From NCBI GenBank assembly GCA_030613705.1, contig JAUWLJ010000088.1, forward strand, positions 1 through 7,793: a stretch of DNA of 7,793 nucleotides. The letters are read 5' to 3'. Shown here one piece after another: positions 4,786 to 5,259 of this stretch. The position numbers were made by a program, and so were the translations under genes. Within the stretch, counting starts at the first letter, position 1; every line of letters starts with the position of its first letter. The notes beneath the pieces are model-generated. The model did not search any database, was not told where the DNA came from, and saw only the letters and a list, made by a program, of their open reading frames with translations. Source of the stretch: Chloroflexota bacterium (GTDB lineage Bacteria > Chloroflexota > Anaerolineae > Anaerolineales > UBA4823).

Positions 4786-5259
4786 ATGAAGGAAGAAATT
4801 CACCCAACATATTATCCTGATGCCCTCGTCGTCTGTGCATGTGGTAACACCTGGACGACGGGTTCGACAATTAAAGAAATTCGCACTGATGTCTGTTCGA
4901 ACTGCCACCCGTTTTTTACTGGCGAACAGCGCATTGTTGACACAGAAGGTCAGGTTGATCGGTTCTATAAAAAACTTCAAGCACGTCAAGATTACATCGA
5001 TGAGACTGAAGCACGGGAAGCTGCCAAAGTTTCACCCGAACGACCGATCGCTGAACTCGAATTGGGAACCCGCGCCACTGCTTCCCTTGCCAAAGCTGAC
5101 ATCACAAAGGTTGGCCAGGTAATGGAAATGCTGGAAACTGGCGAAGCATCCCTGCTCGCCGTTGAAGGATTTGGTCGAAAATCATTGACTGATCTCAAGA
5201 AGCGTTTACGCCAATTCGGCTACAAGCTGCCAGAAGCCGCTCAAGAGATTCAGGTCTAG
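4786..5259 (+). CDS. rpmE: 50S ribosomal protein L31 fused to an RNA polymerase alpha-CTD-like domain
   Basis: This 157-aa protein is about twice the usual L31 length. Residues 1-68 are a zinc-type L31, with MKEEIHPTYYP at the N-terminus, C17, C19, C37 and C40 as zinc ligands, and the CSNCHPFFTG and VDRFYKKL motifs. A charged linker (~69-85) leads to residues 86-150, which match the alpha-CTD of RNA polymerase. RPIAELELGTRATASLAKA aligns with the E. coli RPVDDLELTVRSANCLKAE segment, and GFGRKSLTDLKKRL with NLGKKSLTEIKDVL. E. coli DNA-contact residues L262, R265, G296, K298 and S299 correspond to L93, R96, G130, K132 and S133. N268 is replaced by A99. AAGGA (4771-4775) lies 10 nt before the ATG. 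It is the last gene of the operon, with a terminator 21 nt after the stop. The L31 role in the 50S subunit is secure. The second domain may bind DNA, rRNA or protein; this is not known. Confidence 0.95.
   Translation: MKEEIHPTYYPDALVVCACGNTWTTGSTIKEIRTDVCSNCHPFFTGEQRIVDTEGQVDRFYKKLQARQDYIDETEAREAAKVSPERPIAELELGTRATASLAKADITKVGQVMEMLETGEASLLAVEGFGRKSLTDLKKRLRQFGYKLPEAAQEIQV

Follow-up and report, generated by a model that had tools for sequence, protein, structure and literature searches.

Ordinary ribosomal protein bL31 is about 66-70 residues long and carries no added domain. In the passages of PMC7530986 that describe it, bL31 has its N-terminal part on 5S rRNA and uL5, its C-terminal part lies against uS13, uS14, uS19 and helix 42 in the 30S head, and bL31 without its last seven residues gives weakened subunit association and 100S formation. 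The C-terminal domain (CTD) of the RNA polymerase alpha subunit RpoA, alpha-CTD, is bound in E. coli by the AR2 domain of NusA, according to the available parts of two studies (PMC4642336, PMC12297416). Here we analyzed 7,793 nucleotides of a Chloroflexota genome (class Anaerolineae, order Anaerolineales; contig JAUWLJ010000088.1, positions 1 to 7,793; hereafter the window), in which one uninterrupted rpmE frame on the forward strand (4786-5259) encodes a 157-residue protein that joins L31 to an alpha-CTD-type domain.

An L31 protein with an alpha-CTD-type tail

We confirmed that the fusion is genuine and not a chimera. PF01197 covers the L31 part over profile positions 1-64 of 65, a full-length match with all four cysteines of the zinc-type (type A) protein in place, and the protein scores above the cut-off of NCBIfam L31 equivalogs. 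The tail, whose alpha-CTD-type domain spans residues 81-142 (85-148 in the division used for Table 1), scores 40.8 bits with PF03118 against a gathering cut-off of 23.8, and structural fold matches bear out its alpha-CTD fold; the PglW model (BREX) also matches it weakly, far under that model's cut-off. When 18 diverse fused L31s were checked with both profiles (E 0.001), PF01197 was found in 18/18 and PF03118 in 16/18. The original prediction, made from the letters of the window, had described a one-frame fusion of a complete zinc-type L31 with an alpha-CTD-like domain that keeps the equivalents of E. coli R265, G296, K298 and S299 and has Ala for N268; all of this is seen in the window protein, and the fusion recurs in genomes of the order. 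It had also held that the tail is not read-through into a neighbour. Both read-through and an assembly chimera are ruled out by the homologues, by purifying selection on the tail and by an intrinsic terminator 3' of rpmE.

The tail is under purifying selection: the ratio of nonsynonymous to synonymous substitution rates (dN/dS) in the CTD is 0.017-0.079 in eight of nine close pairs, with high dS (0.3-1.8), and could not be computed for the ninth. Mean pairwise identity among 57 fused proteins is 0.76 in the L31 core, 0.50 in the linker and 0.56 in the CTD; since 30 RpoA CTDs of the class share 0.66, the L31 tail is less well conserved than its RpoA counterpart. Two linker residues stand out in these proteins, Q68 (53/57) and S83 (54/57). 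An AlphaFold2 model shows one L31 helix of 35 residues (47-81) that spans most of the linker and is predicted to carry the CTD outward from L31.

We searched a phylum sample of 400 genomes, our own included, with a fused-L31 profile, which returns a ranked list with two-domain matches on top. Among the matches listed, about 160 rows in all, 40 genomes have a two-domain match: 36/36 of the order (own included), 4/19 of the other class members and 0/345 elsewhere, while three of the 400 have no profile match whatever. The fusion is thus present in every close relative sampled. A class sample of 150 genomes, again including our own, gave an L31 match in 141, and 32 of these carry a CTD tail (with four L31s of family f13 unread). 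The 32 comprise 23 that match a class RpoA-CTD profile, L195, G192 (L110) and seven order members including our own; the tail of L195 was counted because it can be aligned with that of a family-mate. The four unread f13 frames are 109-110 residues long, too short for the fusion, and their family-mate L241 has no tail. Outside the order we read 129 L31s from 49 families (the codes are the search tool's own). The tail is present in f10 (5/5), f12 (4/4, plus G192), f14 (4/4), f102, f121 and f125 (2/2 each), f117, f126, f128 and f130 (1/1 each) and f109 (1/2), and the other class L31s read have short or low-complexity tails.

Many plain, unfused L31 loci are about 66-70 residues long. Among the best 80 loci of a scan that took no separate sample of other phyla, 50 are plain (L034-L083, both Chloroflexota and further phyla), and none of these has a CTD tail. 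The labels on named records with the fusion mostly read Anaerolineae, Anaerolineales or Chloroflexi, and homologues that bear a name are called simply L31. We found no published description of an L31-alpha-CTD fusion by title or abstract start, in a search whose coverage leaves out most subscription journals and preprints. Some apparent candidates were rejected: matches overrunning the core in L057, L067, L079 and G011 proved spurious, with no CTD in the L31 frames, and in six f54 genomes (G119, G135, G143, G151, G239 and G381) the match crossed an in-frame stop, with no CTD and a next frame that is another gene. We also observed that four fused f10 L31s (L263, L264, L268 and L270) no longer have their zinc cysteines, both CxC and CxxC being replaced, and keep the CTD tail, with one L31 match per genome.

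The fused protein is the only L31 match in our genome (58% complete), and each of six sampled order-mates with 97-99% completeness likewise has a single match. In the class sample there is one L31 match per genome in 140/141, the exception, G422, being a frame split in two. With L31 found as a single copy, any ribosome that contains L31 would have the domain, barring its cleavage. The genome's RpoA (326 residues) retains its own CTD, with PF03118 above cut-off, and RpoA-sized frames (322-324 residues) with PF03118 matches are listed for 6/6 of the sampled order-mates.

Probable kinship with NusA domains and a likely second fusion

We compared the window-type tails (53 distinct tails from 59 loci, after removal of identical tails and reads under 140 residues; about half are named metagenome-assembled genome records whose order was not checked singly) with group B (n=18; f10, f12, f14, f117, f126, f128 and f130), group C (n=6; f102, f121 and f125), f109 (n=1), class RpoA (n=30) and NusA domains (n=28). 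The loop between E. coli positions 279 and 296 has 17 residues in E. coli; it has 20 in 30/30 RpoA, 28/28 NusA and 52/53 window-type tails, and either 20 or 21 in the remaining L31 groups, a pattern suggestive of local descent.

A domain tree of RpoA, NusA and L31 (88 rows, 68 columns), which leaves out near-copies, L207, the weak L371 and multi-CTD proteins, sets the L31 tails and NusA domains together (97/98), apart from RpoA; with only 68 columns it has several long branches and 26/85 forks open. Window-type and B tails group at 98/99 and C tails at 97/84. Direct origin from RpoA was an earlier reading, because a tree without NusA had set all L31 tails within class RpoA (100/97); it was dropped once the NusA domains were added. 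The original prediction of an alpha-CTD-like tail stands as a family match, with PF03118 above cut-off, but the tail appears to group with the NusA C-terminal domain and not with that of RpoA.

Such a domain is present at 27 of the 69 NusA loci read, one a weak partial match; these loci were chosen partly for fused families, and some may be cut. Our own NusA (L003) is among the carriers (PF03118, 26.4 bits). The NusA proteins of many Anaerolineae (L003, L276-L278, L322, L350, L355-L366 and others) have one or two alpha-CTD-like domains in the C-terminal part, and the f109 NusA domains score 77-91 bits with the class RpoA-CTD profile. Four further large proteins (L134 in G409, L319, L320 and L321) contain two or three alpha-CTD repeats, and L134 additionally has a sigma-70 region 4 domain (PF04545, E 6.1e-17).

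In the f109 genome G469, nusA (NusA by Pfam) ends in a repeat to which the L31 tail is 79% identical. The nusA frame starts about 0.8 kb from rpmE, on the opposite strand, and tail and repeat pair in the domain tree (99/83). The sister genome G445 has an L31 that is 85% identical and lacks the tail. Fusions of the f109 type occur in 16 further proteins (72-98% identity, one partial), and five L31s without a tail are 90-97% identical over about half the query, its first half. An approximately unbiased (AU) test does not reject a single origin of all L31 tails (p 0.255 with f109, 0.635 without). The AU test by itself does not call for a second origin, but L31 appears to have gained such a tail at least twice, which the original prediction had not foreseen; the grounds are the 79% identity to a nusA only 0.8 kb away, the 16 like proteins, the five closely similar tail-less L31s and the tail-less G445. 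On the tree, the domain probably came from the alpha-CTD family via NusA or a shared ancestor, with an early fusion within Anaerolineae and a renewed fusion in at least one other lineage. An AlphaFold model of the f109-type L31 (16 sequences) has a mean pLDDT of 61; only its CTD is confident (84-87), and we leave its linker uninterpreted.

Residue changes and what the tail may bind

The DNA determinant of alpha-CTD (R265, N268, G296, K298 and S299) is complete in 30/30 RpoA and 7/28 NusA domains, in 2/53 window-type tails, and in none of group B (0/18), group C (0/6) or f109 (0/1). The window protein keeps four of the five, losing N268. Among window-type tails, position 268 is acidic in 40/53, the K298 equivalent is Ser or Ala in 19/53, and nearly all have other residues in place of N268, C269, N294 and E302. 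In E. coli, UP-element activation is abolished by N268A or N268W and lacZ expression is reduced by N268D, as cited in the accessible part of PMC11434276. The tail could nevertheless bind DNA as it does in polymerase, for example at an UP-like element 5' of rplU-rpmA-rpmE, so that free L31 autoregulates the operon or ribosomes attach to DNA; the four retained equivalents in the window protein and the promoter-like site 5' of rplU (12/12 consensus positions) speak for this. Binding to an UP element or to its own promoter, which the original prediction had raised, is disfavoured because of the four replaced residues and the effect of N268A and N268W, and known bL31 autoregulation targets mRNA via the N-terminal segment (PMC10931766, in the part available). 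We consider DNA binding highly improbable.

Basic residues at 304, 305 and 308 together are present in 53/53 window-type tails and 17/18 of group B, where the miss is cut by a contig end, and in 0/6 of group C, 0/1 of f109, 0/30 RpoA and 0/28 NusA domains. The median charge of helix 297-310 is +4 in the window type and group B, 0 in RpoA and -1 in NusA. Helix geometry would place 305 on the face that formerly contacted DNA, with 304 and 308 on the adjoining one. In f12 tails R265 and G296 are mostly lost and the basic patch is retained. Because the DNA determinant is broken and the patch invariant, even in f12, we infer that the window-lineage CTD is a recruited helix-hairpin-helix retuned for the ribosome.

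With moderate confidence, we favor a reading in which the CTD docks on the 30S head and strengthens the L31 intersubunit bridge, instead of binding promoter DNA. The predicted helix 47-81 would hold the CTD out from L31. To judge from the position of bL31 in other bacteria, the tail would start at the 30S head; the L31 core here keeps the end that contacts the head, so the CTD should begin there. The basic last helix would then contact 16S rRNA or an acidic neighbor. The putative reuse of a helix-hairpin-helix for rRNA binding was among the options of the original prediction, of which it fits best.

Several points weigh against docking on the 30S head. The docking itself is something we infer. 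The AlphaFold2 model has a pTM of 0.42, so the direction of the CTD relative to L31 is not confidently predicted. The whole CTD is only weakly basic, with a median net charge of +1 in the window type and -1 in group B. Window-type tails often retain R265 (50/53), G296 (53/53), S299 (45/53) and K298 (34/53), and some old-style nucleic-acid grip may therefore remain. The patch is missing from group C and from f109, whose tail is NusA-like with a net charge of -8, so one mechanism is not enough for all L31-CTDs. Finally, kinship with NusA, together with the E. coli contact between AR2 and alpha-CTD, favors a role at RNA polymerase.

Such a role, another option of the original prediction, would make the tail a coupling device that binds the RpoA alpha-CTD or NusA and keeps polymerase, or else the antitermination complex, attached to ribosomes or nascent ribosomal particles. 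The joint group of L31 tails and NusA domains, the f109 pairing with a nearby nusA repeat, the contact made by AR2 (PMC4642336, PMC12297416) and the presence of PF03118 above cut-off in each of our genome's own RpoA, NusA and L31 are consistent with it. Helix 4, however, is basic in the window lineage and neutral or acidic in NusA and RpoA. Position 259, which we take to be among the sigma- or activator-facing positions of alpha-CTD (258-261 and 286-288), is acidic in 49/53 window-type tails, again in keeping with coupling. Against it, variation is seen at 258, 261 and 287, and 288 mostly has Ala in the place of Glu. Polymerase sits at the mRNA entry, which would be distant from the 30S-head site of the bL31 C-terminus, a further point against coupling. 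That site, near uS13, uS19 and h42, is the one published in the passages cited above (PMC7530986). We judge coupling unlikely. A broader version, in which one mobile helix-hairpin-helix on RpoA, NusA and L31 couples transcription to the ribosome by like-with-like contacts and was recruited by L31 at least twice, seems to us quite unlikely.

The tail could instead be a structural add-on with no nucleic-acid role, a rigid spacer or a protein contact (uS13, uS14, uS19 or the other ribosome in 100S) that replaces low-complexity tails. Many class L31s without a CTD are also extended: only 16/107 such frames run fewer than 30 residues past residue 58, and the extensions are often rich in Ala, Lys and Glu. 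The CTD evolves faster than the core (0.56 vs 0.76 mean identity), f12 has lost most of the alpha-CTD determinant, the alpha-CTD of L195 (group C) is barely recognizable, and 100S formation suffers when bL31 lacks its last seven residues (PMC7530986, same passages). Against this, an invariant 304/305/308 patch (53/53) and the low CTD dN/dS are more than a spacer needs, and we regard the add-on, too, as improbable. Among unfused class L31s, five (L186, L192, L214, L239 and L248) have Ala/Pro/Lys/Glu-rich C-terminal tails that reach 177-253 residues past residue 58.

Genomic surroundings and comparison with known systems

The fused rpmE belongs to a ribosomal cluster that opens with rplU (Table 1). 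An Rfam scan of the window for a leader RNA gave a single match, far under that family's own cut-off, and the stretch ahead of rpmE has no folding advantage over shuffled versions (z -0.70). Divergent from the cluster, on the reverse strand at 289-3774, lies a gene for a 1161-residue protein with adenylate/guanylate cyclase, AAA and TPR domains. At 6685-7728 on the forward strand is a gene for a Poly(A) polymerase head-domain protein (tRNA nucleotidyltransferase-like) with a DUF5678 domain at its start.

Table 1 Features of the rpmE locus in the window.
Feature	Position	Strand	Basis
Sigma-70-type promoter-like site (TTGACA-17-TATAAT), 5' of rplU	3981..4009	+	12/12 consensus matches, spacer 17; consensus match only
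rplU (L21), first frame of the ribosomal cluster	4075..4470	+	PF00829, E 9.9e-37
rpmA (L27)	4460..4717	+	PF01016, E 3.5e-35
Shine-Dalgarno-like GAAGGA ahead of rpmE	4770..4775	+	Read in the sequence
rpmE (L31-CTD fusion, 157 aa)	4786..5259	+	Frame, profile matches, homologues
L31 core, residues 1-64; zinc cysteines C17, C19, C37, C40	4786..4977	+	PF01197, E 8.1e-28
Linker, residues 65-84	4978..5037	+	AlphaFold2 secondary structure; partial conservation
Alpha-CTD-type (helix-hairpin-helix) domain, residues 85-148	5038..5229	+	PF03118, fold matches, dN/dS
R96, equivalent of E. coli R265, kept	5071..5073	+	Alignment of tails
A99, equivalent of E. coli N268; DNA contact replaced	5080..5082	+	Alignment of tails
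K138 K139 R140 L141 R142, basic patch in last helix (E. coli 304-308)	5197..5211	+	Alignment of tails
Intrinsic terminator, 13-pair stem and T run, 3' of rpmE	5281..5310	+	Sequence scan

A core, bridge-forming ribosomal protein has thus gained a folded domain of the transcription machinery, throughout the sampled order and repeatedly within the class. If the tail binds rRNA, a DNA-reading domain would have been retuned for the ribosome, and the fused protein would offer a naturally occurring bL31 bridge variant; a partner such as polymerase or NusA would instead make the tail a hard-wired coupling device.

Compared with type A bL31 (RpmE), the window L31 has a complete PF01197 domain, the CxC...CxxC cysteines, the 30S-head-contacting end of the core and a single copy, and differs in about 90 added residues with a folded domain. 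With the RpoA alpha-CTD it shares the fold, the helix-hairpin-helix and the R265 and G296 equivalents, and with class RpoA also a loop three residues longer than that of E. coli; unlike RpoA, it has no alpha-NTD, has N268, C269, N294 and E302 replaced, and carries the new 304/305/308 patch. The alpha-CTD-like domain at the C-terminus of Anaerolineae NusA (compare AR1/AR2 of E. coli NusA) is apparently its nearest group in the domain tree and the likely donor of the f109 fusion, but is acidic (median -5) and has the patch in 0/28. L134, with its several CTDs and sigma-70 region 4, likewise carries a PF03118-type domain outside RpoA, and BREX PglW resembles the window tail through a weak sub-cut-off match to its model; unlike the fused L31, neither is ribosomal.
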